Source: Rhodospirillaceae bacterium
Lineage (GTDB): Bacteria > Pseudomonadota > Alphaproteobacteria > TMED109
Length of the DNA: 32,334 bases
Assembly (NCBI GenBank): GCA_902614225.1
Contig: CACMKJ010000008.1
Span: forward strand, 1-32,334
Reading direction: 5' to 3'
Position numbers and translations under genes: made by a program. Of this stretch, positions 238 to 29,112 are shown one piece after another (within the stretch, counting starts at the first letter, position 1; each line of letters starts with the position of its first letter). The notes beneath the pieces are model-generated. The model had not been told where the DNA came from. It searched no databases and was given only the letters and a program-made list of their open reading frames with translations.

Positions 238-708
238 TTAATTTCTTGAAAACTCTATATATGCTTTTTCTGATATCTTACATTTTTCGATAGAATAGTT
301 CGCTTCTTCAAAATATTTAATTCCATATTTGCATTCTGCACCTATTAAGTATTTCCAGGGACCAGTTCCGTCTACATACTTATTTATCCCGACTCCTGCA
401 TCAAATTCACTAGACTCTCTTTTTATAACTGACCAATTTTTATTTCCCTTATGATCTATAACCTCACATTTCATATTTAATTCAATACTTTTATTTTTAT
501 GAGTAGTAAATAAACCAAAACATTTATTTTTTCCATAATTACCAAAGTTATCTGTCCATAAACCAGAGGATTTTATATTTGTGTGTATAGTACCATTTTC
601 CAACTCATATTTTTCTTCTTCAACAGTAGCATAACTTGTAGTAATTAATTCTTTTGCATTAGAAGCATAAATACAAGAGAATAAAAGTATAGCAATCAAA
701 AATTTCAT
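238..708 (-). CDS. array paralog 1: secreted four-Cys protein, C-tail subfamily
   Basis: Family motifs WTDNFGNYGKNKC, MKCEV, FDAGVG, GTGPWKYLIGAECKYG, EKCKISEKAY; start at internal ATG 708 (MKFLIAILLF) favoured by promoter spacing over ORF-track start 732. Confidence 0.88.
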   Translation of the reverse strand: MKFLIAILLFSCIYASNAKELITTSYATVEEEKYELENGTIHTNIKSSGLWTDNFGNYGKNKCFGLFTTHKNKSIELNMKCEVIDHKGNKNWSVIKRESSEFDAGVGINKYVDGTGPWKYLIGAECKYGIKYFEEANYSIEKCKISEKAYIEFSRN

Positions 709-742
709 ACTTTTAATATAATAGGTTATCATAAATATCCAA
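709..742 (-). promoter_or_regulatory. promoter of paralog 1: TTGGAT-16-TATATT-6-ATG
   Basis: Same geometry as other array promoters; -10 ends 6 nt before ATG. Confidence 0.55.
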
Positions 743-999
743 ATAGAAATTTGACCTTACTTCAGGACACTTCTCTTTTAACTTTTCATCTTTCATTTTT
801 TCTTTTCATTGTAAATAGTTGTGATTACCTTTAAACTTTTTTTCTCTTGTACTAATATCTTTACCTACAAATCATTATTCAATCAACTGCTAGATATACT
901 TTCAATAATATTTACACAAAAATGATTTAAACCAAATATTCTTTACACAAAAAGATTTACACTAATTTAAAAAAAATAAAGATTTCTGAATGATACGAT

Positions 1000-1057
1000 A
1001 AAGAGCACGAGAATAATAATCCCAAAGTCGTAAGTTTAAATGTTGTTACCGCCACCA
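1000..1057 (+). pseudogene. decayed tRNA(CAU)-like 3' half, copy A
   Basis: aagagcacgagaataataatcccaaagtcgtaagtttaaatgttgttaccgccaCCA aligns with copy B (2928-2997); anticodon lost. Confidence 0.5.
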
Positions 1058-1159
1058 CAAATCTATAGTCAATCTAACTTTTAAAGGATTATTACTTCAC
1101 TAAAAATAGCTCAAATCTGTGATACAGTTTGAAAAAGTAAAAATATGGTACGAAATATA

Positions 1160-1187
1160 AGGACAAAGGAGATGTTTTTTATATAAT
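1160..1187 (+). promoter_or_regulatory. array promoter: AGGACA-16-TATAAT, 6 nt to ATG
   Basis: GGACA 1161-1165, TATAAT 1182-1187, ATG 1194. Confidence 0.75.
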
Positions 1188-1193
1188 GATTTT

Positions 1194-1655
1194 ATGAAAA
1201 TATTATTTATATTTATATACTTCTCTTTGATTAATTCATTATTTTCTTATGATTTTGAAATGGAAATTCTTTCTGTAGGTGATGAAAGAGACACTAACAT
1301 TTTTAAATACTCTGATACTATTACTTATAGGCATTTTAATAATACTACAAACTGGAAAGATAATTTAGGTGATTGGGGTAAATTACAATGTGCGGGTAAT
1401 CATACTATAATAAAGAATCAAGGCACAATACTTAAAAATTATTGTAAAGGTACAAATAAAGATGGTGATATTTTTTGGTTAATGATGGACAGAAAGTCAA
1501 ATGACTTTGATTCTGGTATTGGTACAATAGTATATGAAAAAGGCACTGGAAAATTTGAAAAATACGATGGTGCTCAATGTGTTTATGCAATTACGTTTCT
1601 TCCTGAAAGAGATGGATCATTTATTAAAAGTAAATGTAAATTTAATGATCAATAA
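1194..1655 (+). CDS. array paralog 2: secreted four-Cys protein, FWL subfamily
   Basis: Signal peptide MKILFIFIYFSLINSLFS; NWKDNLGDWGKLQC, YCKG, FWLMMDR, DSGIG, GTGKF, QCVYA, KCKF. Confidence 0.92.
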   Translation: MKILFIFIYFSLINSLFSYDFEMEILSVGDERDTNIFKYSDTITYRHFNNTTNWKDNLGDWGKLQCAGNHTIIKNQGTILKNYCKGTNKDGDIFWLMMDRKSNDFDSGIGTIVYEKGTGKFEKYDGAQCVYAITFLPERDGSFIKSKCKFNDQ

Positions 1656-1693
1656 TCTACTATCTTATATTTTAAAAACAAAATCGAAATACA

Positions 1694-1721
1694 AGGACAA
1701 CAAATAAGATTTGCATATACT
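1694..1721 (+). promoter_or_regulatory. array promoter: AGGACA-16-TATACT, 6 nt to ATG
   Basis: GGACA 1695-1699, TATACT 1716-1721, ATG 1728. Confidence 0.75.
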
Positions 1722-1727
1722 ATTTAT

Positions 1728-2183
1728 ATGAAATTTTTTTTAATTATATTTATTTTTTTATCTATTAATATTACTTATTCAGAAGAATTTTCTTTAAAAT
1801 GGAGTATAAGTGTTACAGTTTTAGACAATATTGAATTCATAGATGGTGGAAACTATGAAGTCAATAGAGCAGAAGGTTCATGGGAAGATAACAAAGGCTA
1901 CTATGGATACTTAAAATGTATAGGACCTTTACTAATTGATAAAGAAAAAAATTTGAAACTAGATTTAATCTGTGATGGATATGATAATAAAAATGATAAG
2001 TTTCAAATTAATTTAAAGAGAAATTCTTTTGAAGATGCGGGCATAGGCAAAGCAATCTATATTAGTGGTACTGGTAGATATTTAAATTTTATCAAAAAGG
2101 AATGCACATATGCAGTTAATTATTTAGATCCTAGAGAAAGGGGTAAAAGATTAGGATTTTATAAACAAATATGTAAGGACTAA
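1728..2183 (+). CDS. array paralog 3: secreted four-Cys protein
   Basis: Signal peptide; SWEDNKGYYGYLKC, LICDG, FQINLKRN, DAGIGK, GTGRY, KECTYAVNYL, QICKD. Confidence 0.9.
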   Translation: MKFFLIIFIFLSINITYSEEFSLKWSISVTVLDNIEFIDGGNYEVNRAEGSWEDNKGYYGYLKCIGPLLIDKEKNLKLDLICDGYDNKNDKFQINLKRNSFEDAGIGKAIYISGTGRYLNFIKKECTYAVNYLDPRERGKRLGFYKQICKD

Positions 2184-2230
2184 TTATTACATTCTGTAAT
2201 GTAGAGATTTAATATAGTAAACTTTTTTTA

Positions 2231-2680
2231 TTATTTTAATTGACATTTATGCTTTGAAAAAGCACTTTCATCTAAAAGTTTTACTGCATAAATACATTCA
2301 GTTCCAATCAGTTCTTTGTATTTACCTGTTCCAAAAATAAATTTTGATTTTCCAATACCAGCATCAAAATCTTCAGTATTTCTTCTTAGTTCTAACCAAA
2401 ACTTTTCATTATCTTGATTTTTGCCATCACAAAAACCCAATAATTTAGCATTACTGTTTTTATCTCCCAAATAAATATTAAATAGACATTTTAAAACTCC
2501 ATAATCTCCATATGAGTTTTGCCAGTTAGCAGTATTTTTTACATGTTGGTATTTAGTATTATTAGGGAAATCAATTATATCTATGTCATTAGAATTAATA
2601 CTAAAAAAAATTTCTACTTCAAAACTTTTTGCAGATAAATTAAAAAAAATAAAATAAAATAGTATGATTAAAATTTTCAT
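2231..2680 (-). CDS. array paralog 4: secreted four-Cys protein, FWL subfamily
   Basis: NWQNSYGDYGVLKC, GFCDG, FWLELRR, DAGIGK, GTGKYKELIGTECIYAV, HKCQLK; ATG at 2680 preferred over TTG at 2686. Confidence 0.9.
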   Translation of the reverse strand: MKILIILFYFIFFNLSAKSFEVEIFFSINSNDIDIIDFPNNTKYQHVKNTANWQNSYGDYGVLKCLFNIYLGDKNSNAKLLGFCDGKNQDNEKFWLELRRNTEDFDAGIGKSKFIFGTGKYKELIGTECIYAVKLLDESAFSKHKCQLK

Positions 2681-2927
2681 TAACAAATGTTATACTTTAT
2701 AAACAAAACTGCCAAATAAAATCTACTTTTCAAGAACTTAAAGAGATTTCTAATTATTCTGTCTAATAATAACAATTATTTATCATTTTTCATACAATCT
2801 ATCACTTACTTAACTTGCGAATATACATTAATAAAAATATTTACATTATTACGGTTTAAACCAAATGTTCTTTGCACAAAAAGATTTACACTCACATTTA
2901 TACTAACTAAAAAACCCAAGCTTTCTG

Positions 2928-2997
2928 CATGATTCTAAAAAAAAGTAGGGGAATCATAATCCTAAGGTCGCAAGTTTACATTTTGCCACCGCAACCA
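2928..2997 (+). pseudogene. decayed tRNA(CAU)-like sequence, copy B (best preserved)
   Basis: GGGGAATCATAATCCTAAGGTC GCAAG TTTACAT TTTGC CACCGCA A CCA: anticodon arm with CAT, T-arm pairing GCAAG/TTTGC, acceptor 3' strand and encoded CCA; D-arm/5' acceptor decayed. Confidence 0.6.
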
Positions 2998-3091
2998 CAA
3001 AACCACAGTCATTTTACATATAGAGATATTCAAAAATCAAAAAAAATTATTTTTTTCCCTTTTTACCCTTAAAAAATCAGAACGAAATATA

Positions 3092-3174
3092 AGGACAGCA
3101 GATGAATTTTTTTTCTATCGAGGATATTAAACACTTACTCATCATATTCAGTTTATATTTTCTTAGAATTTAAT
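3092..3174 (+). pseudogene. orphan array promoter plus signal-peptide relic of a deleted paralog
   Basis: AGGACA, 16 nt, TCTATC, exactly 6 nt (GAGGAT), then ATT AAA CAC TTA CTC ATC ATA TTC AGT TTA TAT TTT CTT AGA ATT TAA = (M>I)KHLLIIFSLYFLRI*. Confidence 0.55.
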
Positions 3175-3179
3175 TTTAC

Positions 3180-3221
3180 GTGTTGTTATTTTAAAACCGG
3201 GAGGAGATAAGATAACAACAC
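3180..3221. repeat. inverted repeat GTGTTGTTAT - 22 nt - ATAACAACAC, loop containing GGGAGGAGA
   Basis: Perfect 10-bp stem read directly. Confidence 0.65.
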
Positions 3222-3398
3222 ATTATAAATATACCATTTTAATATTTAAAAAAAATAACAACTAGATTTATTATATAATGAAATTAAATAACGGATCATG
3301 AAAATTATTTTTAATGGCAGCATTTAATTAAAAGATTATTGACAGGTCATAATTCTGTAATAAATAAATGATCTAATTGAAAATTATACGTATTTTAA

Positions 3399-3893
3399 TT
3401 AATCGTATTTAAAATTAACTATACGGTCATATGATGCTTTTGTAACATTACAAGAAGCATCAAAAAGATAATAATTTTGATCATGAACTGTTCTGAGTGC
3501 TCCTAAACATCTTGCACCAACTAACTCTTCAAATGGTCCAGTTCCATGAGTTATTTTAAATGGATTTACCTCTGCATCCAAATCTCCTCCAGGATCATCA
3601 TGAAAAGTCCAAAAAGAAAAACCGTTTTTTGCAATTCCTTTACATGTAATAAACTGTTTATTTATTTGCCCTTTACTATTTAATTCCATAGTTCCTGTAC
3701 ATTCACTAGAACCAAATAAACCAACGTTACTAGTAAAGGTATTTGAAGAGGTCCAATTAAATACAATTCCTTGATTATTTGGAAACTCAATAGTATTTTC
3801 AATTTTTTGTTTGCCGCCAAAAGACATTTTTACGGTTTCTGCATTAATAGAATTTATTATGAAGAAAAAAATTATAAAAAATAAACGATACAT
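3399..3893 (-). CDS. array paralog 5: most divergent member
   Basis: Signal peptide; FTSNVGLFGSSECTG, TCKG, FWTFHDDPGGDLDAEV, GTGPFEELVGARCLGAL, ASCNVT; keeps four Cys, lacks the conserved Arg. Confidence 0.82.
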   Translation of the reverse strand: MYRLFFIIFFFIINSINAETVKMSFGGKQKIENTIEFPNNQGIVFNWTSSNTFTSNVGLFGSSECTGTMELNSKGQINKQFITCKGIAKNGFSFWTFHDDPGGDLDAEVNPFKITHGTGPFEELVGARCLGALRTVHDQNYYLFDASCNVTKASYDRIVNFKYD

Positions 3894-4059
3894 AGCGCTT
3901 ATATTAATAATTTAGGAAAAAAAAACAAGATATTACTATTAATTAGTATAAAAATTAATTATTTTAAAAATTATAGTACTAGCTTTGCATTTAATTTCTT
4001 CAAGAACGTTTGTGTCTAATGTTTTACTCAAATAAAAAACTTAGAAAATCTGGTGAAAC

Positions 4060-4120
4060 AAAGATTAACTGTGAAATCATAATTTTAAAATCGTAATTTT
4101 TAATCTTGCTACTGCCACTT
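4060..4120 (+). pseudogene. decayed tRNA(CAU)-like 3' half, copy C
   Basis: ctgtgaaaTCATAAttttaaaaTCGtaatttttaatcTTGCtACtGCCActt aligns with copies A and B. Confidence 0.42.
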
Positions 4121-4215
4121 CATAATTATAACTAACTATACTTTTCAAGTAATAAAAATAAAAAAAAATTTAAAGCTGTGAAATACTTAGAAATTTAATA
4201 TAGTGAAAAAATATT

Positions 4216-4243
4216 AAGACAGAATAATAGATTAATATATGAT
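4216..4243 (+). promoter_or_regulatory. array promoter: AAGACA-16-TATGAT, 6 nt to ATG 4250
   Basis: Exact geometry if the second ATG (MKFIFTIKL) is the start. Confidence 0.65.
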
Positions 4244-4249
4244 ATGAAC

Positions 4250-4702
4250 ATGAAATTTATATTTACAATTAAACTTATCTTATTAGCAAACATATTATAC
4301 TCTAGTGACTTTGGAATTGAGATATTATCAAGTGACTCTGATGTAAGAGTTACAGAGATACCTGATGTAATGACTTATAGGCAGTTCCAAGTAAATTCAA
4401 ACTGGAAGGATACATTAGGTGATTGGGGTATATTAGAATGCACCGGCACGTTTACTTTATTAAAAGAAAATAAAACCATATTAAAAAATTACTGCAAAGG
4501 AACAAATGTTGAGGATGAAAATTTTTGGTTGATAATGGATAGAGAATCGGACAATTTTGACTCTGGAATAGGAGAAATTCAGTATGTGCAAGGTAATGGA
4601 AAATTTAAAAAATATATAGGAGCAAAATGTGTTTATGCTGTATCACATCTGAAAAGACGTATAGGAACATTCATAAAGGCAAAATGTGATTTAATAAAAT
4701 AA
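4250..4702 (+). CDS. array paralog 6: secreted four-Cys protein, close to paralog 2
   Basis: NWKDTLGDWGILEC, ILKNYCKGTN, FWLIMDRESDNFDSGIG, GNGKF, KCVYAV, KCDL; ORF-track start is 4244. Confidence 0.9.
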   Translation: MKFIFTIKLILLANILYSSDFGIEILSSDSDVRVTEIPDVMTYRQFQVNSNWKDTLGDWGILECTGTFTLLKENKTILKNYCKGTNVEDENFWLIMDRESDNFDSGIGEIQYVQGNGKFKKYIGAKCVYAVSHLKRRIGTFIKAKCDLIK

Positions 4703-4773
4703 AGTATAAAAATGTGCTTTTTAACTATATTATTGAAAATTTAAATATTTGAGTAGTCTAATTCAATACATAC

Positions 4774-5199
4774 ATGAAATACTTGATGGTTATATTTGCT
4801 TTATTAATGATGTCAGTTGCTTTTGGAATAGAGCCTAATAAAAAAGGTATTTTTTTAAAAAATATATTAGAAAGTTATAAATGGAAAAAAAGATTTTTAG
4901 TTCTTGTTACAAACAAAGAAGATATAGTTTTAATTAAAGAGGTTCAAAAATTTTTTAAAAATAATGAATGTAGAAATCATGAAAGAGAGTTAGAACTGAT
5001 TAAAATCATTATAGAAAAAGATTATGATCCACTGTTGCCACTTTATTTTAAAAACAAAAAAGGAATTTGGCTAATAGGGTATGACGGAAAAATAAAAGCA
5101 TATTCTCGAGATAATTCTTTATTATTAAATTTATATGACATAATAGATATTATGCCTATTAGAAAATTAGAAATAGAAGCGCCTTCAATTTATTATTAA
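4774..5199 (+). CDS. secreted DUF4174-like protein
   Basis: Signal peptide; LESYKWKKRFLVLVTN ... LYFKNKKGIWLIGYDGKIKAYS ... LYDIIDIMPIRKLEI resembles DUF4174. Confidence 0.7.
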   Translation: MKYLMVIFALLMMSVAFGIEPNKKGIFLKNILESYKWKKRFLVLVTNKEDIVLIKEVQKFFKNNECRNHERELELIKIIIEKDYDPLLPLYFKNKKGIWLIGYDGKIKAYSRDNSLLLNLYDIIDIMPIRKLEIEAPSIYY

Positions 5200-5212
5200 A
5201 TTATCTTATATT

Positions 5213-5428
5213 ATGATTTATAAAATTAAAGATAACTTAGGTATTGAATATGAAATTAAAGATATTAAAAAATTTGCTAGTCATATTTTTCAGTTTCATT
5301 CTTTTGGTATTTCATTACATCAAGAAAATGGCCATGATTTTACAGTAAATGCTGCTTTTAGAGAGAGAATATCTAAATTTCTAATAATAGAAAAAAATGA
5401 AAATACTAATAAAAGAAATATTAAATAA
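5213..5428 (+). CDS. small uncharacterised protein (FGISLHQENGHDFTVNAAFRERI)
   Basis: 71-aa ORF, first of a compact overlapping trio. Confidence 0.65.
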   Translation: MIYKIKDNLGIEYEIKDIKKFASHIFQFHSFGISLHQENGHDFTVNAAFRERISKFLIIEKNENTNKRNIK

Positions 5429-5663
5429 TAAATTTGAAGTAATAGTTAAAAATAAGATTAATACAAAACACACTGTCATAGTATCTGAGGAATATTATTT
5501 AAGTTTAACGTCAAAAAAAATATCTAAAAAAAAATTAATTGAGTATAGCTTTAAATTTCTTTTAAATAGAGAAGCTAATACATCAATTTTATCCTTCTTT
5601 GAACTAAATGTTATAACATCATATTTCCCTGACTTTGAGAGTGAAATAAAAAAATTATTGTAG
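5397..5663 (+). CDS. small uncharacterised protein with LLNREANTSILSFFELNVITSYFPDFE C-terminus
   Basis: 88-aa ORF overlapping the previous by 32 bp. Confidence 0.7.
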   Translation: MKILIKEILNNKFEVIVKNKINTKHTVIVSEEYYLSLTSKKISKKKLIEYSFKFLLNREANTSILSFFELNVITSYFPDFESEIKKLL

Positions 5664-5670
5664 TAATCTA

Positions 5671-5874
5671 TTGAGATACAGAAAAAAAAAATGTTACAGT
5701 TGTAATAGAGATAAGGAAATATTATATCGTTGTAGACATGATGAAATTTTCTTAGAAAGAAGCAGAGTCTATAAAAGTTGGTTTTTTGTTTGTGAATATT
5801 GTTTACAAGATATTAAAAAAAAATTTAAAAACTCTTATCAATATGGAGGAACCTGGAAAAGTAGAAAAAAATAA
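5671..5874 (+). CDS. small zinc-ribbon-like protein (CYSC...CEYC...YGGTWKSRKK)
   Basis: TTG start; two CxxC pairs; typical YGGTWK tail. Confidence 0.65.
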   Translation: MRYRKKKCYSCNRDKEILYRCRHDEIFLERSRVYKSWFFVCEYCLQDIKKKFKNSYQYGGTWKSRKK

Positions 5875-5935
5875 GTGATTAATTATTTTTTGAGTAAAAC
5901 TAAAAATATTTTTAAAATATTAGGAAAATAGATTT

Positions 5936-6421
5936 ATGGTAAGTATAATTAAAGGAACAAAATCATTAATATTTTATTTATTCATGTTTAATACAAATGT
6001 ATTTGCTGATATATATAATTTTAAATGGTACAACGAAGAGAAACAGAGCGACAAGATAGTATTACCAGATAATTCAAATTTTTTTTCATTTACTTCTTCA
6101 GGAATATGGGAAGATAATTTAGGAAATTATGGAGAGATGAAATGTGTTGTTTCATTATTTTCAGATAGCATGCAGGGTATTGAACTAATTGGGTATTGTG
6201 AAGCTAAAGATAATAAAGATGAGAAGTTTTGGACTAAATTAGATAGAACTTCTTCAGGGCAAGAGTTAGGAATTGGAAAAATGACCTTTTTGTCTGGTAC
6301 CTCTAAATACTCTAGGTTAAAAAACATAAGCTGCCCTTATGCAGTTGAATGGGTTGGAAGTGGAGGTATCTTGAAAGCAAGGTGCAGCAAAGAGATAAAT
6401 ATAAAGGGCCTATTAAAATAA
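5936..6421 (+). CDS. array paralog 7: secreted four-Cys protein, FW subfamily
   Basis: IWEDNLGNYGEMKC, GYCEA, FWTKLDR, LGIGK, GTSKY, SCPYAV, ARCSK. Confidence 0.9.
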   Translation: MVSIIKGTKSLIFYLFMFNTNVFADIYNFKWYNEEKQSDKIVLPDNSNFFSFTSSGIWEDNLGNYGEMKCVVSLFSDSMQGIELIGYCEAKDNKDEKFWTKLDRTSSGQELGIGKMTFLSGTSKYSRLKNISCPYAVEWVGSGGILKARCSKEINIKGLLK

Positions 6422-6516
6422 TGGATAATGCACTTATTAATTATAAAATTTAATTTAGAATGTTTTTAAAGTATTGACTAGAAATAAAGTATCAAATGCT
6501 ATAGTGTTGATAAATA

Positions 6517-6879
6517 ATGATAAAATTTAATTTACTACTTAAAGAACCACATTTAAAAGCAATCAGTGATCTTAAAGAAAAGTTTTTAGCTAAAAGTGAT
6601 CAAGAAATAGTAAATAAATGCATTGAGTCTGCACTAAATTTAAATAAAAATGATTTGATTTTTAGCACTGTAAAGGAAAAGTGTAGTGGGGGCTGCTTCG
6701 CATCTGAACCTCAATTTGAAATTGAATTAGATGAAAACACTTTTATGCAACTTAAAAAAATTTATATTAATAATAATTTTGATGATTATAAAACCGAAGA
6801 GGAAAGAATTAGTAAAGTTATCAGATGTATTATAAATTTTTTTGAGGATGAATCAAAACTAATAACTGTAAAATCCTAA
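6517..6879 (+). CDS. hypothetical protein, N-terminal ribbon-helix-helix-like segment
   Basis: LLLKEPHLKAISDLKEKFLAKSDQEIVNKCIESAL; two similar-looking halves; no signal peptide. Confidence 0.55.
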   Translation: MIKFNLLLKEPHLKAISDLKEKFLAKSDQEIVNKCIESALNLNKNDLIFSTVKEKCSGGCFASEPQFEIELDENTFMQLKKIYINNNFDDYKTEEERISKVIRCIINFFEDESKLITVKS

Positions 6880-6894
6880 ACTAAATTAAATAGG

Positions 6895-7029
6895 TCAAGA
6901 TTTTTTCTCGTCAGTATTATTTTTTTTCATTTTACCTTTTTTCTTGCATATTTTTTTAGCAATTAAACCTGACATTAATCCTAGAGAAATTCCTAGGATA
7001 GCTCCTCTTATAAATCCAAAAGCAAACAT
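6895..7029 (-). CDS. 44-aa single-TM protein MFAFGFIRGAILGISLGLMSGLIAKKICKKKGKMKKNNTDEKKS
   Basis: Read from reverse strand; below ORF-track cutoff. Confidence 0.45.
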   Translation of the reverse strand: MFAFGFIRGAILGISLGLMSGLIAKKICKKKGKMKKNNTDEKKS

Positions 7030-7168
7030 ATTTATATTCCCTGATTCATTTTTTTATAATATAAACATATAGTAATTAATTAGAATTTTAACAGTATATA
7101 TATTAAAAAATGTATATAAAAATTTTACATTAAATTTTTAAAGCAATGGTTTTTGAAAGAAAAATATA

Positions 7169-7196
7169 AGGACATCAGGAATTTTTTTTATATAAT
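7169..7196 (+). promoter_or_regulatory. array promoter: AGGACA-16-TATAAT, 6 nt to ATG
   Basis: GGACA 7170-7174, TATAAT 7191-7196, ATG 7203. Confidence 0.75.
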
Positions 7197-7202
7197 CATT
7201 AT

Positions 7203-7679
7203 ATGAAAAATAATTTAGTACTATTATTATGTTTTTTCTTATTTTCTAATTTGTATTCTGCAGAAATTGAAATGCAGAGTAATTCAAGAGTTAAATATGA
7301 TGAATTTATTTTCACAAACAAATCTAAATACATTATTATTAATCATGAGGGGCAATGGACTGATAGTATAGGTAATTATGGTTCTAATGAATGCAAAGGA
7401 TTAATAAAAAAAAATGAAAATGATGTAGTTTATTTTCTTGATGTGATTTGCGAGTTAGTTGACCAAAATAATCAAGTAACCTGGAGGAAGTTTGAAAGAA
7501 CGGGAAGTCAAATAGAGAGAGGCGTAGGTGTATCAACTATAATAGATACTACTAGCAAGTATAAAGATGAGTTGATTGGTACTAAATGTACTTATGCTGT
7601 TAATAGAACGAAAGATATGGTATTTGGTAAGTCAATTTGTAAAGTATCGGATGAATTATTTAAAAAATTAATAGAATAA
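7203..7679 (+). CDS. array paralog 8: secreted four-Cys protein, C-tail subfamily
   Basis: QWTDSIGNYGSNECKG, VICEL, RGVG, LIGTKCTYAV, ICKVSDELFKKLIE. Confidence 0.9.
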   Translation: MKNNLVLLLCFFLFSNLYSAEIEMQSNSRVKYDEFIFTNKSKYIIINHEGQWTDSIGNYGSNECKGLIKKNENDVVYFLDVICELVDQNNQVTWRKFERTGSQIERGVGVSTIIDTTSKYKDELIGTKCTYAVNRTKDMVFGKSICKVSDELFKKLIE

Positions 7680-7690
7680 GTCAGTTTTAA

Positions 7691-8140
7691 CTAATTTAGT
7701 TTACATTTATTATGTGCAAAGTTTTTATTATCTAAATATTTTATTGCATAAGAGCATCTAATCCCAATAAACTCCCTGTATTTTCCTGTAGCATCAAATA
7801 TAATACTCTTACCAACGCCTGCATCCGCATCTTGATTACCTTCTCTATTAACTCTGTGCCACATCTTTTCATTATCTTGATTTATATACTCATAAATATG
7901 GTCTAATTTAAAATAACTAGAATTTTTCTCTATAGGTCCCATGCATTTTATATGTCCATAATCCCCTAAATTATTTGTCCATGAACCTTCTCCTTTATAA
8001 ATTGAATATGTACCATTATTAGAATATGTAAAAGTATCAAGTATATATGATGCACTACCTTGAATTATCATTTCCTTTGAAAATGTTGCAAATGCAAAAA
8101 CAAAACTAAAAATAAACATTATAATTTTATAAAATATCAT
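7691..8140 (-). CDS. array paralog 9: secreted; second Cys replaced by Tyr
   Basis: SWTNNLGDYGHIKCMG, HIYEYINQ (TAT codon 7892-7894 instead of Cys), DAGVGK, IRCSYAIKYL, NKCKLN. Confidence 0.9.
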   Translation of the reverse strand: MIFYKIIMFIFSFVFAFATFSKEMIIQGSASYILDTFTYSNNGTYSIYKGEGSWTNNLGDYGHIKCMGPIEKNSSYFKLDHIYEYINQDNEKMWHRVNREGNQDADAGVGKSIIFDATGKYREFIGIRCSYAIKYLDNKNFAHNKCKLN

Positions 8141-8361
8141 AAAAAAATATTATACTTTTTGCTTGAAACATCAAAATAAATTATTTTTTTTGAATTTAAA
8201 CACAAGTAATAGTTTTGTTTTAAAGGATATTTATATTATAAATTTCAATTTCTAATAATTATCAAAACCAATAAAATATATTTTTTAGTATTAAAGCTTA
8301 TAATTAAATTACTAAAGTATTTTAAATTTTACATATAATATTTTTTTAAATATGATTAATA

Positions 8362-8814
8362 ATGAAGAATTTTTTAATAATAATTATATTTTTATTAGTT
8401 CAAAAAAATTTCTGTGATGAAATACAAGAATGGACATTTAAATTTTCTGGGTTTATGGAATCAAAAACTATTAACTTCCCAAGTGGAGGAAAAGTTAACA
8501 ATTTTATTCAAAATGGTACATGGGAAGATAGTTTAGGTAATTATGGTAAAGGTTTTTGTTATGGAATAATTGAGTCTAAAGATAAAAAAGATAGCTTTTT
8601 TCAATACTACTGTGAAGTAAGCGATCAGGATAATGATAAATTTTTCACCAAAGGTACAAGAAAATCAGAAGATGCTAAAGCTGGCGTAGGTAAACAAACA
8701 ATAATTGATGGGTCTGGGAAATGGAAAAGCTTGATTGGCACAATATGTATTTATGGAGTAAAATATGTTGATGATGTCTTATTTGCCTTGCAAAAATGTA
8801 AGTTTTCTAATTAA
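8362..8814 (+). CDS. array paralog 10: secreted four-Cys protein
   Basis: TWEDSLGNYGKGFCYG, YYCEV, KAGVGK, GSGKWKSLIGTICIYGVKY, QKCKF. Confidence 0.9.
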   Translation: MKNFLIIIIFLLVQKNFCDEIQEWTFKFSGFMESKTINFPSGGKVNNFIQNGTWEDSLGNYGKGFCYGIIESKDKKDSFFQYYCEVSDQDNDKFFTKGTRKSEDAKAGVGKQTIIDGSGKWKSLIGTICIYGVKYVDDVLFALQKCKFSN

Positions 8815-8903
8815 TATTATTTTTTAATAAATAAAACATATAGTTGAAAATAATTTGTAGATTTTTAACTAAACTAAAAATTTTCACATAAAATATAATT
8901 ATG

Positions 8904-8931
8904 AGGACAGTGCTGAAGTTTTTTATATAAT
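8904..8931 (+). promoter_or_regulatory. array promoter: AGGACA-16-TATAAT, 6 nt to ATG
   Basis: GGACA 8905-8909, TATAAT 8926-8931, ATG 8938. Confidence 0.75.
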
Positions 8932-8937
8932 AAAAAT

Positions 8938-9414
8938 ATGAGAATTTTTATAGTTATATTTTTTTATTTTTTTTTATTACATCTCACTAGTGCAAAAACC
9001 CTTATAATTGATAGTGCAAGTAAAATTACTAATGATCAGGTATTTAATTTAAATAATGGGATGAAAATAATAGCATTTCATTTAGAAGGGCATACTAAAA
9101 ATAATTTAGGTTATTATGGTCAATCAAAATGTAATGGTATACGGGAAATGCAAGATGATAAATTATTAAAGCTAAATGTATTCTGTGAAATAATTTTTCA
9201 AGACGGAAGCAAAATCTGGTCAAAGTCAGAAAGAAGCGGAGAATTAAATCAAGCAGGAGTAGGGCGTTCAATATTTATAGATGCATCCAGTAAATTAAAA
9301 AGTCTTATTGGTACTGAATGCATATATGCTGTTAATAAAGTTTTAAATTCAGATTTTTTCAAGGCTAAGTGTAAAATATCTGAAGAGATATTCAATAAAC
9401 TTAAAATACAATAA
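8938..9414 (+). CDS. array paralog 11: secreted four-Cys protein, C-tail subfamily
   Basis: NNLGYYGQSKCNG, VFCEI, AGVGR, LIGTECIYAV, AKCKISEEIFNKLKIQ. Confidence 0.9.
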   Translation: MRIFIVIFFYFFLLHLTSAKTLIIDSASKITNDQVFNLNNGMKIIAFHLEGHTKNNLGYYGQSKCNGIREMQDDKLLKLNVFCEIIFQDGSKIWSKSERSGELNQAGVGRSIFIDASSKLKSLIGTECIYAVNKVLNSDFFKAKCKISEEIFNKLKIQ

Positions 9415-9417
9415 AAT

Positions 9418-9906
9418 ATGCAGTTTATTATTATTTTAATAACCATGTTAATTTCTTCTTTAAAAGCTGAAGATGAAAAGGAATACATAATAACAGGCTC
9501 AGATGACACTGTAATTAAGTCATTCCAATTAGAAAATAAAAGTAAATTTTCGAGTTTTACATCTAATGGAAGTTGGACTGACAATTATGGTAACTATGGA
9601 TTTACAAGTTGTATGGGGATAATGAATAAAAAATTTAAAAAGGTAGAGCTATATTTTATGTGTGAGTCAGAAGATAAAAATGGATATAAAATATGGACTA
9701 TAAGTAAAAGACAGTCAGAGTCAGAAACAAGCGGAGTAGGATCTTTTGAAATAGTTGACGCCACAATACCAAAGAAAGAGTTATATATAGGTAAAAAGTG
9801 TACGTACGCTGTTAAATATTTAAAGGAAACTAATTTTTATAAAAGTAAGTGTAAAATATCAGAAGAGCTTTCAAGAGTTTTTGAAGAAATGGGAGCAAGG
9901 AAATAG
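9418..9906 (+). CDS. array paralog 12: secreted four-Cys protein, C-tail subfamily, 3 nt after paralog 11
   Basis: SWTDNYGNYGFTSCMG, FMCES, SGVG, IGKKCTYAVKYL, SKCKISEELSRVFEE. Confidence 0.9.
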   Translation: MQFIIILITMLISSLKAEDEKEYIITGSDDTVIKSFQLENKSKFSSFTSNGSWTDNYGNYGFTSCMGIMNKKFKKVELYFMCESEDKNGYKIWTISKRQSESETSGVGSFEIVDATIPKKELYIGKKCTYAVKYLKETNFYKSKCKISEELSRVFEEMGARK

Positions 9907-9992
9907 ATTTAAAATGATTGTTAAATTAGTAGTTTTAGGAAAAATATTCTAAATCATAAATTATTTACTTGCTTAATATATTTTTAAAGTAC

Positions 9993-10021
9993 AGGACAAC
10001 AACAAAAAATTCTTGTAATAT
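9993..10021 (+). promoter_or_regulatory. array promoter: AGGACA-17-TAATAT, 6 nt to ATG
   Basis: GGACA 9994-9998, TAATAT 10016-10021, ATG 10028. Confidence 0.6.
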
Positions 10022-10027
10022 TTTATA

Positions 10028-10504
10028 ATGAAAAAATTAATAATATTTTCTTTATTCTTTACTTTTACTACTAAACTTTATGCAGAATTTTATATTGAGA
10101 GTACTATTACAGGCATTATAGAAAATGAAGGTTATCAATTGCCTAATGGAAATCAATTTTTAATGATAAAAGGAACTTATCAGTGGACAAATAATATAGG
10201 TTATTATGGAACAGCGACATGTAAAGGTTTATTAGAAAAAGAAGGTACTATATCTTCAATTAATTACCTATGTGAAGCAATAAATCAAAAGGGAGATAAG
10301 CAATATATTTTATCTAAAAGAAAATCTGCTGATTTACAATCTGGAGCAGGAAAGCAAATAGTTGTTGATGCAACAGGAAATGATAAAATTTTTATTGGAA
10401 CAGAGTGTAACTTTGCCATAAGTTATTTGAAAAATAATGCTTTTGCTAAGACTAAATGTCCAGTTAGTAAAGAGGTATATAATAAATATAAAAATAATTT
10501 ATAA
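10028..10504 (+). CDS. array paralog 13: secreted four-Cys protein, C-tail subfamily
   Basis: QWTNNIGYYGTATCKG, YLCEA, SGAGK, IGTECNFAISYL, TKCPVSKEVYNKY. Confidence 0.9.
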   Translation: MKKLIIFSLFFTFTTKLYAEFYIESTITGIIENEGYQLPNGNQFLMIKGTYQWTNNIGYYGTATCKGLLEKEGTISSINYLCEAINQKGDKQYILSKRKSADLQSGAGKQIVVDATGNDKIFIGTECNFAISYLKNNAFAKTKCPVSKEVYNKYKNNL

Positions 10505-10589
10505 GATCTAAATTAAAATATTTTTAAATAATATGAATAACAAAGTAATTTTAATAATAGATAAAGAAATAAATCAAAAAAATAAAGAC

Positions 10590-10607
10590 ATGAGAAAATT
10601 TTCTCAT
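10590..10607. repeat. 18-nt perfect palindrome ATGAGAAAATTTTCTCAT between convergent paralogs 13 and 14
   Basis: Read directly; possible bidirectional terminator or AT-rich chance palindrome. Confidence 0.5.
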
Positions 10608-10719
10608 AAAATTAGGATATGAAATTTTTTCATAGTTAGTAAATTTACTTACACTCTCATTTATACAAGTAGAAGAGGATAGCTTAAAAATAATAAAAAA
10701 TTTATTATTATTGCTATTT

Positions 10720-11160
10720 TTATAGTTTGCACTTTTGTTTATAAAACATTCTATCTTCAAAGTAGTTTACTGCATAAGGACATTTTTTTCCTTTTAGTGA
10801 TTTATATTTACCATCTCCGTAAATATATGTGGCAATTCCAATTCCTATTTCCATATCTGAAGTTCTATTTAAATTTAACCAAAACTTTTCTTCATTTTGA
10901 TTTTTTGCTTCACAAAAAGCTTGTAGAATATCAGAATTTTTTTGATTTTTCGTTGTTATGGTGGCAAGACAATTTATCACGCCATAGTCACCTTGAGTGT
11001 CCTTCCAATTAGCTGAGCCCTCTAATTGTATATATTTATTACCATTAGGAAAATTTATTTCTCTTTGATCTGTAACATGCATGTAGATCTCTAACTCAAA
11101 ACTACTTGATATAGATGTTCTAAATAAAAAAAGAGCTACTATAAGTATTAAAATTTTCAT
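10720..11160 (-). CDS. array paralog 14: secreted four-Cys protein, FWL subfamily
   Basis: NWKDTQGDYGVINC, AFCEA, FWLNLNR, IGIG, GDGKYKSLKGKKCPYAVNY, QKCKL. Confidence 0.9.
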   Translation of the reverse strand: MKILILIVALFLFRTSISSSFELEIYMHVTDQREINFPNGNKYIQLEGSANWKDTQGDYGVINCLATITTKNQKNSDILQAFCEAKNQNEEKFWLNLNRTSDMEIGIGIATYIYGDGKYKSLKGKKCPYAVNYFEDRMFYKQKCKL

Positions 11161-11318
11161 AATAAATACTACCTTATATAAGTTTTACTTTACTTTATAG
11201 AGCTAGTCTTTAAAAGAAAATTTTGTATAAATTTTTATTATCCTTCAAAATCATCAAGTTTTTAATTTAGATGATTAAACTTAATTATACTTTTTTTCTT
11301 AAAATCTTATAAAAAATG

Positions 11319-11346
11319 AGGACAGGAAAAAAAGATTTAATATAAT
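11319..11346 (+). promoter_or_regulatory. array promoter: AGGACA-16-TATAAT, 6 nt to ATG
   Basis: GGACA 11320-11324, TATAAT 11341-11346, ATG 11353. Confidence 0.75.
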
Positions 11347-11352
11347 ATAAAT

Positions 11353-11799
11353 ATGAAATCTTTTTTATTAACATTTTTAATTTTAAATGTAATTAGTTCT
11401 TCTTTTACGCAAGATATAATAATAGATGTAAGAGGTTATTATCAAAATGATGAAATAGTTATGAATAACGGAAATAAACTAGTTCATTTAAGTAGTAAGG
11501 GTAATTGGAATGACAATTTAAATAATTATGGAAGTGTTTTCTGTAAAGGAAGTATTATGATGAATAAGGATGGTAAAAGAAGTGACAGTGAATTGGTCCT
11601 ATGTGAAGCAGAAGATGTAAATGGAGATTTTTTTTGGTTAGTACCAAAAAGAAGTGACTCCGAGTGGGATGCAGGCGTAGGAAAGGCTTCTATAGTCTCT
11701 GCTACAGGAAAATATCAGAATTTATTAAACAAAAAATGCATTTATGCTGTTTCATATTATAAAGATACTTTTCATTCTAGAACAAAATGTGAAAAATAA
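11353..11799 (+). CDS. array paralog 15: secreted four-Cys protein, FWL subfamily
   Basis: NWNDNLNNYGSVFCKG, VLCEA, FFWLVPKR, DAGVGK, ATGKY, KKCIYAVSYY, TKCEK. Confidence 0.9.
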   Translation: MKSFLLTFLILNVISSSFTQDIIIDVRGYYQNDEIVMNNGNKLVHLSSKGNWNDNLNNYGSVFCKGSIMMNKDGKRSDSELVLCEAEDVNGDFFWLVPKRSDSEWDAGVGKASIVSATGKYQNLLNKKCIYAVSYYKDTFHSRTKCEK

Positions 11800-11841
11800 T
11801 TGATGTAATAGATTAGTGAAAGAATATTTGATCAAGTAATT

Positions 11842-12298
11842 ATGAAAATTATTTTAATTTTACTTTTGAATTTTATTATTCATTTTTTATTTTCAGATGA
11901 TATCTATAAATATAGAATTATATTTAGTACAACCAACTACGATTGACCTTCCTGACTGAAGCATATTTTAAATTGTTTTTGGTAAGGGAGGATTGATCCA
12001 TAATAAGGGAAATTTGGAGATATACTAGCCATAGAACAAGAGAGGCTGATATGAATAATAATCTACTAGATACTAATGTATTATTTGTACTAGAAAAGGA
12101 TAAAAAAATAAATTTTGGGGAAAAGCAATTAGAAAAAATTCAGGCACTGATGCTCGTGGAGGTGTCATGTTTCTTATTATAGCGGGAATTAGAGAATTTG
12201 AAAATTTAGTTGAAAAAAAGTGCAACTATGCACTTGCTGCAACAAAAAAATTTACTGTTATGCAAGATAATATCTATAAAATAGTAGCTAATAATTAA
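11842..12298 (+). pseudogene. frameshifted paralog of the array family
   Basis: Signal peptide MKIILILLLNFIIHFLFSDDIYKY... stops at TGA; middle TNVLFVLEKDKKINF; then shifted frame DARGGVMFLIIAGIREFENLVEKKCNYALAATKKFTVMQ matching DAGVGKxxIIxGTGKxxxLIGxxCxYAV. Confidence 0.8.
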
Positions 12299-12354
12299 AA
12301 TTATTTATGTAATTTACCTATTGTAAAATTTAATTTAATAAATAAACTAATTAT

Positions 12355-12651
12355 ATGTTCTTAAGAATCGGAATTATGAAATTTCCCTCTCAGGATAAAA
12401 TGGATGCTTATATTGCTATGCTTGAGAGTGTATTTGTTAAAAGATTTCAAGAGGATACACTTATGCTCCAACATTTAGTTGTTAAAACAGGAGAGGCTAA
12501 ACTTGCAGGTTATGGTTTATATAAGTCAAAAGAAGATTTTCTTAAAACAGGTAGTAGAACAAAAAAAATGCTTACTGATTTTGTTAAATCTCAGGATGGT
12601 ATTGTAGAGTTTAATGATGGCGAAGTTATTGTAAACTGGGAAAGAGAGTAG
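12355..12651 (+). CDS. hypothetical cytosolic protein, possibly dimeric alpha/beta-barrel (ABM-like)
   Basis: 98-aa ORF without signal peptide. Confidence 0.55.
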   Translation: MFLRIGIMKFPSQDKMDAYIAMLESVFVKRFQEDTLMLQHLVVKTGEAKLAGYGLYKSKEDFLKTGSRTKKMLTDFVKSQDGIVEFNDGEVIVNWERE

Positions 12652-12785
12652 AAAGTTTTTAAACAAATATTGTTTAGTAAAAAATACTTTTTACTTGTTT
12701 CTTGGGAGTAAATTTAAAATGAATATATTCTCTAAAATTTTATATAAATATTTATAATGTCAATCTTTTCAGAGATTCTAAAATA

Positions 12786-13274
12786 GTGATTATTGTTAAA
12801 AATATTCTTTTTATCATATTTTTTTTTATTTTGAAGAACTCATATTCTAAAGAATATGACTTAATTTATAATTTTAGTGGATCATTTGAAAAGAATGAAA
12901 TGGTATTTTTAGATAATAGTAAACTTACCCACAATGTTTATGAAGCAGAGTGGACTGATAATTATGGGAATTATGGTACTTCTTATTGTTTAACAAGTAT
13001 CAAGTATGATTCAAAAAAAATAATTATCAGACTAGATAGTTATTGTAGACTTAAAGACCAGGAGGGTAACATTTTTACTCAATATAATGGTAGGGCAGGA
13101 AATGAGCTTAATGCAGGAAGTGGAAAAGTAAAATTTATCGAGGGTCAAAAAAAATGGAAATTTTTAATTGGAGCCGAATGTTTATATTCAATTAAATATT
13201 TAGAAAATAGAACATTTAGTATTAGAAAATGTAAGATCACAAAAGACATGCATGATAAATTATTAAATCAATAA
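12786..13274 (+). CDS. array paralog 16: secreted four-Cys protein, C-tail subfamily
   Basis: GTG start; EWTDNYGNYGTSYC, SYCRL, AGSGK, LIGAECLYSIKYL, RKCKITKDMHDKLL. Confidence 0.88.
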   Translation: MIIVKNILFIIFFFILKNSYSKEYDLIYNFSGSFEKNEMVFLDNSKLTHNVYEAEWTDNYGNYGTSYCLTSIKYDSKKIIIRLDSYCRLKDQEGNIFTQYNGRAGNELNAGSGKVKFIEGQKKWKFLIGAECLYSIKYLENRTFSIRKCKITKDMHDKLLNQ

Positions 13275-13754
13275 ATGTTAAGGGCAATCATTATATATTG
13301 TTTGTTATTTACTTATAACAGTTGGTCTAAAGATATCGTATTTAAAATGGAAGGGAGTGGAAGAGGCATAGAATACGAAGTAATGAGTTTAGATGAAAAA
13401 AACAAGGTTATTTTATATAAAACAGAAGGTAATTTTAAAACAGATTTGGACCTTTATGGAGGCATGGATTGTTTAGGGGTTTTTAAAAAAATTAATAGTG
13501 CAGCAGATTTAGATTTAACGTGCGAATTTGTTGATCAAAATAATGACAAAATGTGGGCATCTTTGATTAGAAAAACAGAGGATATTGATGCAGGAGTAGG
13601 AAGGGTTTTTATTATAGGAGGAACAGGAAGATGGAAGTATTTATCAGGATCTGATTGCAAATATGCTGTTAAACTTAATAAATCAATTTGGTTTACTTCA
13701 ACAATTTGTGATATAGAAGAGTATAAGTATTTAAAATTTATAGAAAGATTGTAA
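13275..13754 (+). CDS. array paralog 17: secreted four-Cys protein, C-tail subfamily, abutting paralog 16
   Basis: LDLYGGMDCLG, LTCEF, DAGVGR, GTGRWKYLSGSDCKYAV, TICDIEEYKYLKFIERL; ATG directly follows TAA. Confidence 0.9.
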   Translation: MLRAIIIYCLLFTYNSWSKDIVFKMEGSGRGIEYEVMSLDEKNKVILYKTEGNFKTDLDLYGGMDCLGVFKKINSAADLDLTCEFVDQNNDKMWASLIRKTEDIDAGVGRVFIIGGTGRWKYLSGSDCKYAVKLNKSIWFTSTICDIEEYKYLKFIERL

Positions 13755-13813
13755 ATTTATTTAAGAATAAAACTATATTTCGTCTCTGAAAAAATACTTT
13801 TATTTTATTAGTA

Positions 13814-13841
13814 TTGAAATAGTAAAAAAGATAGATAACAT
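13814..13841 (+). promoter_or_regulatory. array promoter: TTGAAA-16-TAACAT, 6 nt to ATG 13848
   Basis: Geometry matches if the second ATG is used. Confidence 0.55.
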
Positions 13842-13847
13842 GGCATG

Positions 13848-14294
13848 ATGCATAAATTAGTAATGATAGTTTTCTTATTTTATTTTAACTCTATTAGTTT
13901 AAAAGCTGAGGAGTATAAACTTGAAATGTTTTTTACAAATAATTTTGAAATTATAAAATTTCCAGATAAAAGTATGTATTATCATGTAAGTGGAACTGGG
14001 GTTTGGAAGGACTCTTATGGTGATTATGGCAATATGCAATGTTATGGCAGAATTTTAGAAAGTAAAGAGAGAAGCACTAATCTAGATATTTTTTGTGATG
14101 CCGTAGATCAAAATAATTTAAAGTTTTGGTTAAGACTGGCAAGAGACTCAGATCAAACTGATGCTGGGGTAGGCACTACAACTTACTTATATGGTGAAAA
14201 AAAATATAATAAACTTGTTGATAAAAAATGTATTTATGCGTCTAAAATTTTTGGGAAAAATGCAATTGTTAATCAAAAATGTAAAATTAACTAA
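13848..14294 (+). CDS. array paralog 18: secreted four-Cys protein, FWL subfamily
   Basis: VWKDSYGDYGNMQCYG, IFCDA, FWLRLAR, DAGVG, KKCIYA, QKCKIN; ORF-track start 13845. Confidence 0.9.
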   Translation: MHKLVMIVFLFYFNSISLKAEEYKLEMFFTNNFEIIKFPDKSMYYHVSGTGVWKDSYGDYGNMQCYGRILESKERSTNLDIFCDAVDQNNLKFWLRLARDSDQTDAGVGTTTYLYGEKKYNKLVDKKCIYASKIFGKNAIVNQKCKIN

Positions 14295-15211: not shown

Positions 15212-15655
15212 ATGAAATTTATAAAACTCATAATAGGACTAGTTTTTTTCAACTCATTTCTAAGCGCTGAAGACTTTAAAAGAGAAGGTTCAGGTTTTAG
15301 TGAGACAGAGGAGTTTTTGTATGATAATAATAAGGTTATTAATTATAAAAATCAAACAACTTGGAAGGATAGTATAGGTAATTATGGAATATCTAAATGT
15401 TTAGGCCTTATAGTATCTGATAAAAAAAATAATATTATAGATTATAAAATGTATTGTAATTATACAGATCAAAATGAAGATAAGTTTACGCATAAATACG
15501 AAAGAGATACTGACTTTTCTGCTGGAGTAGGCAGTAGTATTATAATTTCTGGTACAGGAAAATGGGTAAAATATATTGGCACCAGCTGTACTTATGCTAT
15601 AGATTATTTGAGTAAAGCACTTTTCATTGTTGAAAAATGTAATTCTAGTCAATAA
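15212..15655 (+). CDS. array paralog 19: secreted four-Cys protein (last copy)
   Basis: TWKDSIGNYGISKCLG, MYCNY, AGVGS, GTGKWVKYIGTSCTYAI, EKCNS. Confidence 0.9.
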   Translation: MKFIKLIIGLVFFNSFLSAEDFKREGSGFSETEEFLYDNNKVINYKNQTTWKDSIGNYGISKCLGLIVSDKKNNIIDYKMYCNYTDQNEDKFTHKYERDTDFSAGVGSSIIISGTGKWVKYIGTSCTYAIDYLSKALFIVEKCNSSQ

Positions 15656-16464: not shown

Positions 16465-16572
16465 TTATTTAAAAAGCTTTGAACTGAAAATAGATAAAAG
16501 TTTAAATAACTTTCTTCTATTCTCGATGGCTTGTCTTTCTTTTATAAAGTAATATAAAGACATTCTATCCAT
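16465..16572 (-). CDS. 35-aa ORF MDRMSLYYFIKERQAIENRRKLFKLLSIFSSKLFK
   Basis: RBS-like AAGAAAGGAAGTGAATT before ATG; lies downstream of the tandem structured element. Confidence 0.55.
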   Translation of the reverse strand: MDRMSLYYFIKERQAIENRRKLFKLLSIFSSKLFK

Positions 16573-16609
16573 AATTCACTTCCTTTCTTAAAAAATTAAA
16601 AAAGTTAGT

Positions 16610-16713
16610 GCGTTCCTTCGGTACCATTACCTACTTCCGTCTCTTGAAGAGATGAACGAATGTAATGCGTTCCTTCAGGCTAGAAGCCTTACTTCCGTCT
16701 AGATAGATGAACG
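16610..16713 (-). ncRNA. tandem pair of structured RNA elements (candidate 5'UTR regulator)
   Basis: Two units CGTTCATC-hp-ACGGAAGTA-hp-GAAGGAACGC (16713-16667 and 16658-16610); second hairpin AGGCT/AGCCT versus GGTA/TACC preserves pairing with different sequence. Confidence 0.65.
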
Positions 16714-16751
16714 TCTTTAAAATTTAGTATATTTTATACTAAATTTAAAGA
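16714..16751. repeat. inverted repeat TCTTTAAAATTTAGTATA-TTT-TATACTAAATTTAAAGA
   Basis: Near-perfect 17-18 bp arms; at the 5' side of the minus-strand RNA, possible operator/promoter. Confidence 0.6.
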
Positions 16752-28949: not shown

Positions 28950-29010
28950 ATTATCTCCATTTCTGTTAATGCTCCAGATCAAAAAAAATAATACTGTTGA
29001 GAATTTATTA

Positions 29011-29063
29011 ACCTCTTTAGCAGTATTTATAAAGCGCTCGCAAGCTGGAGCTCAAATCAGCGC
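29011..29063 (-). promoter_or_regulatory. SAM-II-type riboswitch upstream of metY
   Basis: GCGCTGATTTGAGCTCCAGCTTGCGAGCGCTTTATAAATACTGCTAAAGAGG: GCGCT/AGCGC stem, ATAAAT, GCTAAA-AGG pseudoknot strand as in SAM-II. Confidence 0.85.
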
Positions 29064-29112
29064 AATTAATAAACTATTTATTTTTTTAAGAAAGTCAATA
29101 TGTTTAATATAT

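Follow-up and report, generated by a model that had tools for sequence, protein, structure and literature searches.

A predicted leaderless promoter tied to tRNA-Met integration junctions in front of island genes of a marine alphaproteobacterial lineage

In integrons, lined-up gene cassettes are expressed from a common promoter tied to the recombination site. Cargo genes are also found beside tRNA genes: the excerpted text of PMC10872708 defines a tycheposon as a cargo element of 4-200 kb beside a tRNA and carrying a recombinase, and it describes a tRNA-Met tycheposon as well as an additive island of Ca. Methylopumilus in which tRNA-Lys 3' ends recur. Leaderless mRNAs are documented in another alphaproteobacterium, Zymomonas mobilis, with 119 pairs of genes and transcription start sites (TSS) (PMC7566282). 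Here, we analyzed a stretch of 32,334 nucleotides (hereafter the window) from Rhodospirillaceae bacterium (GCA_902614225.1, contig CACMKJ010000008.1, our contig C8), whose genome assembly of 1.06 Mb is 55% complete. The window has a GC content of 25.8% and carries 19 intact genes and one pseudogene of a family of predicted secreted proteins (~150 residues, with conserved Gly and Cys). We focus on a promoter-like block found in front of part of these genes and on its association with relics of tRNA-Met(CAT).

The block reads AGGACA-16-TATA(A/C)T-6-ATG in front of the genes starting at 1194, 1728, 7203, 8938 and 11353, all on the forward strand. Clustering of upstream regions placed it in class A (CGAAATATAAGGACA...), separate from class B (CAGATAATTGATAGGATTAGTTAATTAAGTTATTAT, i.e., TTGATA-17-TATTAT-6-ATG) and class C (TTTGGATATTTATGATAAGAGTATTATATT). 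The five promoters span 1150..1193 (CGAAATATAAGGACA-16-TATAAT-6-ATG, with AGGACA at 1160-1165 and the -10 at 1182-1187), 1684..1727 (AGGACA 1694-1699, TATACT 1716-1721), 7160..7202 (AGGACA 7169-7174, TATAAT 7191-7196), 8895..8937 (AGGACA 8904-8909, TATAAT 8926-8931) and 11310..11352 (AGGACA 11319-11324, TATAAT 11341-11346). One more forward copy is class A-like (9993..10027), with AGGACA at 9993-9998, a 17-nt spacer, TAATAT at 10016-10021 and 6 nt before the ATG at 10028; the six AGGACA copies counted in an earlier reading of the letters alone (the sequence-only reading) are thus correct, five having the 16-nt spacer and one the 17-nt spacer. That reading had also proposed a fixed leaderless-type geometry in front of nine paralogs, which we confirmed: a TAnnnT hexamer ends exactly 6 nt before the start in 11 of the 19 intact paralogs, against 6.3% expected (p=3.2e-9).

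The same rule had been used to settle the starts at 708, 4250 and 13848. The 6-nt distance holds at all three, but the promoters differ: the one at 708 (709..744, reverse strand, TTTGG..TATATT-6-ATG) is of class C and belongs to a separate upstream family (TTTGGATATTTATGATAAGAG...), the one at 4250 is a class A variant (4208..4249, forward; AAGACA 4216-4221, 16 nt, TATGAT 4238-4243), and the one at 13848 is weak (13814..13847, forward; TTGAAA-16-TAACAT-6-ATG). In the reverse-strand paralogs starting at 2680 and 8140, TAnnnT is also found at 6 nt, but a better -10 lies at 8 nt. Eight paralogs fall outside the rule: 3893 and 11160 on the reverse strand, and 5936, 8362, 9418, 12786, 13275 and 15212 on the forward strand. 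The sequence-only reading had overlooked the other classes of leaderless promoters, the tRNA-Met relics described below, and two decayed class A blocks on the forward strand. The decayed block at 3083..3120 (AGGACA 3092-3097) lies 95 nt past a tRNA relic, has lost its -10 and has no open reading frame (ORF) behind it, and the one at 10577..10618 (AAGACA 10585-10590, TAAAAT, 6 nt) leads to the ATG at 10619 of a broken ORF. The exact AGGACA-N16-TATAAT occurs at five sites of this genome, each of them at a family gene (four sites in the window, the fifth on contig C12), and a position weight matrix of class A gave a single weak match in 180 kb of control DNA searched on both strands.

A sigma-70 -10 element ending at -7 puts +1 at the A of the ATG. 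To see how far this geometry extends, we computed the distance from the end of TAnnnT to the start codon in 153 family members of eight genomes. Offset 6 is found in 59 of the 145 genes with an ATG start, with a mean of 8.6 genes at the other offsets (~6%), and in 62 of 153 (41%) when other start codons are counted too. Control genes, drawn from the sampled stretches with starts set mechanically at the first ATG, show it in 56 of 428 cases, significantly less than the family (p=1e-11). These unrelated genes nevertheless peak at the same offset (13%, 27 expected, p=4e-7), also when control stretches alone are considered (17 of 152 vs 8.3 expected, p=0.006). The leaderless geometry is thus a general habit of the lineage, enriched in the family. 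Family genes outside classes A, B and C still have it in 30 of 114 cases.

In class A, the columns GGACA and TAnnnT were the selection criteria, so that only the flanks and the length of the leader are informative in the alignment. Conservation extends to the unselected flanks CGAAATATAA and AAGTTTTTTA. All 13 members have a 6-nt leader although 3-12 nt were allowed; three of these members also fit a shifted 18/4 register (class A blocks share ancestry, hence such counts are not independent). The leader columns carry ~0-0.2 bits, except for a T at -1, which is only slightly enriched overall (p=0.04). A length kept while the sequence is not kept points to a positional constraint. The invariant distance, the near information-free leader and the sharp spike across species thus support the earlier claim of leaderless mRNAs, with TSS that are predicted from the sequence; transcription from the A of the ATG is the best reading of the geometry, and a well-supported one. 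We dropped the depletion of Shine-Dalgarno motifs as independent proof of leaderless starts (2 of 118 genes with TAnnnT at 6, vs 115 of 463), since the hexamer fills the Shine-Dalgarno window and genes with TAnnnT at neighboring offsets are equally depleted.

The block also lies at a fixed distance from tRNA-Met(CAT). The window has three forward-strand relics of the tRNA 3' half, at 1002..1057 (tRNA positions 22-77, 84%), 2944..2997 (positions 24-77, 89%) and 4075..4118 (positions 32-75, 75%), and each is followed by a class A block; for the gene at 1194, the -35 sits 103 nt past the CCA end. On contig C12, an intact tRNA-Met(CAT) is followed 91 nt past its CCA end by a class A -35 and then by a family gene, and the intact tRNA-Met of a relative that is 93% complete (G003) has the same layout. 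Overall, the block lies 79-93 nt past CCA in 22 of the 25 assessable tRNA-Met genes or 3'-half relics, compared with 0.8% of random stretches. The relics hold tRNA positions ~22-77, and positions 1-21 are swapped for at least four unrelated flanks. Varied flanks joined at the same point of the tRNA mark site-specific integration, as opposed to simple tandem duplication, and direct repeats of a tRNA 3' end with a foreign flank for the 5' half are what is expected of tRNA-integrated islands. In the window, the 5' half is replaced by an arm-like repeat with TTTACAC motifs at 904..1001 (forward; 85% to 2833-2892), and a similar one precedes the second relic (2833..2943, forward). Arm-like repeats of the TTTACAC, TTTCCCCC and TTAGACAG types are found on both sides, and a match between the repeats at the two ends of the same unit is convincing in some units only.

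Two further sets of loci have partial tRNAs. A second tRNA-Met-like place of insertion is seen at L204, L207 and L208, where a tRNA-Met 3' fragment and a class A block in partial decay lie behind a guaA-like gene. At L083 and L089, there are many partial copies of tRNA-Ser(TGA), some of the 5' half only, and a tyrosine recombinase adjoins at L089/L211.

In the sequence-only reading, the block had been ascribed to the paralog family. Our results instead tie it to the tRNA-Met junctions, since it also precedes unrelated genes of secreted proteins. In relatives, these are MORN-like, DUF4174-like and pilin-like genes, and the cargo behind tRNA-Met, which is variable as in other islands, comprises family genes, MORN-like, DUF4174-like, pilin-like and methyltransferase-like genes. 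The assignments in relatives were made by sequence similarity; in the window, Pfam identified the genes at 4774 (DUF4174) and 15709 (MORN_2). On the tree of the family, the 15 class A leaves require 11 changes (14.4 at random), or 7 after collapsing branches below 95. Class A proteins have a median identity of 32%, close to that of random family pairs (29%), and their coding starts are 48% identical. At the DNA level, identity is 68% in the 37-nt block and 33% directly upstream of it. The scatter of class A on the tree suggests that the block goes with the junction and not with the gene lineage. Separately, at L205 (4034-10405; contig C27 of genome G005), a tRNA-Met island carries a tandem array of about nine type IV pilin-like genes that are nearly identical at their N-termini.

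Class B adds a second leaderless promoter at a repeat tied to integration. The repeat is the 3' end of a tyrosine-recombinase-like gene: at locus L210, its 23-mer (6165-6187) ends exactly at the stop of an ORF of ~440 codons (...GTKTALGSYTSANLKMAVSFYEQIIDRIS*). The integrase 3' end supplies TTGATA, and the -10 lies directly past the stop codon. These last codons recur through the arrays (L210, L209, L067, L094, L135 and others), with 29 matches of the 23-mer in 29 genomes and none for the reversed control. Locus L067 has three such repeats ~570 nt apart, with one family gene each.

We propose that the block is a sigma-70-type leaderless promoter that belongs to the tRNA-Met(CAT) integration junction and expresses the first gene behind it, a reading to which we give a probability of roughly 0.7. 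Its TATAAT-like -10 and 16-18 nt spacer are as in a sigma-70 (RpoD) promoter, so that AGGACA-16-TATAAT-6-ATG would be read by RpoD, with transcription starting at the A of the start codon. Units of DNA would have been integrated one behind another at tRNA-Met(CAT), presumably by a tyrosine recombinase, with the promoter at the inner end of each. The order of a unit would be the tRNA 3' half, ~80-95 nt with short arm-like repeats, the promoter, and a gene joined at its start codon. Whichever secreted-protein gene came first would then be expressed: mostly members of the lineage-specific family in the window, and MORN, DUF4174 and pilin-like genes too in relatives. A leaderless start would permit direct joining to the coding sequence without a ribosome-binding leader.

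Several observations weigh against this proposal. The -35 AGGACA matches TTGACA at only 4 of 6 positions. No integrase gene was found beside an intact tRNA-Met in the stretches read, and integrases were found beside tRNA-Ser. Several interior class A promoters lack a detectable tRNA relic (1728, 7203, 8938 and 11353 in the window, and three in genome G011), one relic lacks the block (L206, 11171), and so do both tRNA-Met genes of genus g5. At these repeats, the contigs of single-amplified genomes break and often end. On the tree, the scatter of class A labels is slightly below random, so that some of the spread is by gene duplication. Finally, one comparison that speaks for the proposal has limits: among blocks with up to two mismatches, 14 of the 16 that have an ORF and 2 of the 8 that lack one keep the -10 and 6-nt geometry (Fisher p=0.005), but these 24 blocks were hand-picked, with two matches outside islands excluded by hand, and the comparison including chance matches is not significant (18 of 33 vs 3 of 10, p=0.28).

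Could the promoters be shared only by tandem duplication of gene plus promoter, with no part for integration? Family members do lie in arrays, class C, with 2 changes over its 5 leaves, follows the gene tree, and the resemblance of class A coding starts fits as well. This explanation is nonetheless unlikely: class A proteins are hardly more alike than random pairs while the block is strongly conserved, class A is scattered on the tree, non-homologous genes stand behind the block, and the distance to tRNA-Met relics is fixed despite their different flanks. An accident of base composition in 26% GC DNA, where TATAAT-like hexamers are common (a background of ~6% per offset), has a negligible chance of being right, as the spike occurs at offset 6 only (p=1e-11 for the family, p=3e-9 for the window) and recurs in other species.

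The six AGGACA copies had led the sequence-only reading to suggest a dedicated sigma factor or activator, which would read GGACA and define a regulon of these genes. The conservation of GGACA and of ~10 nt upstream exceeds that of a normal -35, and the block is nearly confined to these islands; a dedicated activator is possible given the conserved nucleotides upstream of the -35. The sigma factor found no support: the -10 is the consensus TATAAT, and G003 encodes only five sigma-70-type proteins, none within the array stretches examined. Promoters with TTGATA and other -35s, as well as unclassified and unrelated genes, share the leaderless offset, so that an AGGACA-specific sigma is unnecessary for it, and the distance to the tRNA offers another explanation of the conservation. 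Hence, we regard a regulon of this kind as improbable. We are equally skeptical that the block serves mainly to bind a recombinase within the attachment region, its promoter activity being incidental. In favor of this reading, arm-like repeats adjoin the block and its distance from the tRNA scar is fixed, but in the hand-picked set the -35, -10 and 6-nt spacing are kept with an intact gene and mostly lost with a dead one, and interior copies that lack a relic still retain the block.

If the block is a junction-borne promoter, it resembles known systems in part. As in described bacterial leaderless mRNAs (PMC7566282), it would combine a sigma-70-type promoter with a start point at the start codon in an alphaproteobacterium; here, the mRNAs are predicted from sequence and are concentrated in island genes of one lineage. 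Like the tRNA-anchored islands and tycheposons of PMC10872708, it occurs in marine or streamlined bacteria and goes with repeated 3' fragments of tRNAs, variable cargo and tyrosine recombinases, the last of these found here beside tRNA-Ser. The tRNA-Met units are 1-4 kb, below the tycheposon size range, and many lack an integrase; the excerpt describes no conserved leaderless promoter for its islands, in contrast with the one at the tRNA-proximal end of each unit here. The likeness to integrons lies in the lined-up cargo and in the promoter tied to a recombination site. This site differs, being the 3' half of a tRNA in class A and the 3' end of an integrase gene in class B, and there is one promoter per unit; intI and attC were neither seen nor sought. 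Tentatively, and with less than even confidence, small integrative units of this marine alphaproteobacterial lineage may carry a conserved, cargo-independent leaderless promoter at their tRNA-Met end, by which any coding sequence joined at its start codon would be expressed at once, with a second type reusing the integrase 3' end as both recombination repeat and promoter, which would make them integron-like expression arrays without attC (not searched for).

Genes that have just been integrated into a new host often come without a functional promoter and ribosome-binding site, and a scar-borne leaderless promoter would meet both needs in ~45 nt. It would also account for the 57 family matches (including at least one that is clearly broken) in such a small and incomplete genome. 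The proposal links leaderless translation with gene capture in streamlined ocean bacteria in a testable way, and it provides start-site predictions for many unannotated island genes. The 61 genomes sampled comprise this one, ~27 of the same taxonomic family and others drawn from further families of the class; matches to the protein family were confined to the same GTDB-type family, in 18 genomes. In a collection of named genomes, the sole relative found was Rhodospirillaceae bacterium AG-430-C17. Viral contigs had no relatives of the one paralog searched, and no class A block, class B repeat or tRNA-Met arm.

The family genes with class A promoters are 1194..1655, 1728..2183, 7203..7679, 8938..9414 and 11353..11799, along with the class A variant 4250..4702 and the class A-like 10028..10504, all on the forward strand. 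Other forward genes are 5936..6421, 8362..8814, 9418..9906, 12786..13274, 13275..13754 (directly after the stop of the previous one), 13848..14294 (paralog 18) and 15212..15655. The gene 9418..9906 starts 3 nt past the stop of 8938..9414, with which it is probably co-transcribed, judging from this spacing. On the reverse strand are 238..708 (paralog 1), 2231..2680, 7691..8140, 10720..11160 and the divergent 3399..3893. The forward pseudogene, 11842..12297, has many stops (10 within 11864-12256).

Searches of Pfam, NCBIfam and PDB sequences gave no family match for the paralogs. The AlphaFold2 model of the protein encoded at 7203 is a barrel after a signal-like helix (pLDDT 93.9, pTM 0.82), and Foldseek placed it nearest to allene-oxide-cyclase-like and DUF3237 barrels (best E 1.7e-3, TM 0.5-0.65). 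The family is therefore predicted to be a secreted, allene-oxide-cyclase-like barrel, export being suggested by the N-terminal sequence. The predicted fold resembles allene-oxide-cyclase-like, DUF3237 and spirotetronate cyclase proteins (PDB 3c5o, 9m2z, 7x7z; TM ~0.5-0.65), from which the family differs by an identity of ~10%, its predicted secretion and four conserved cysteines.

Among neighboring genes, the Shine-Dalgarno leaders reported earlier are visible for rpoN, motA and FAS1, but the metY-like gene has a SAM_alpha riboswitch in its leader (28996-29073, reverse strand). Elsewhere in the window, a tandem pair of glutamine riboswitch aptamers (RF01739; E 4e-11 and 1.5e-8; 16607-16715, reverse strand) precedes a 35-residue ORF (MDRMSLYYFIKERQAIENRRKLFKLLSIFSSKLFK; 16465-16572, reverse strand), possibly a glutamine-controlled small regulator in an alphaproteobacterium.

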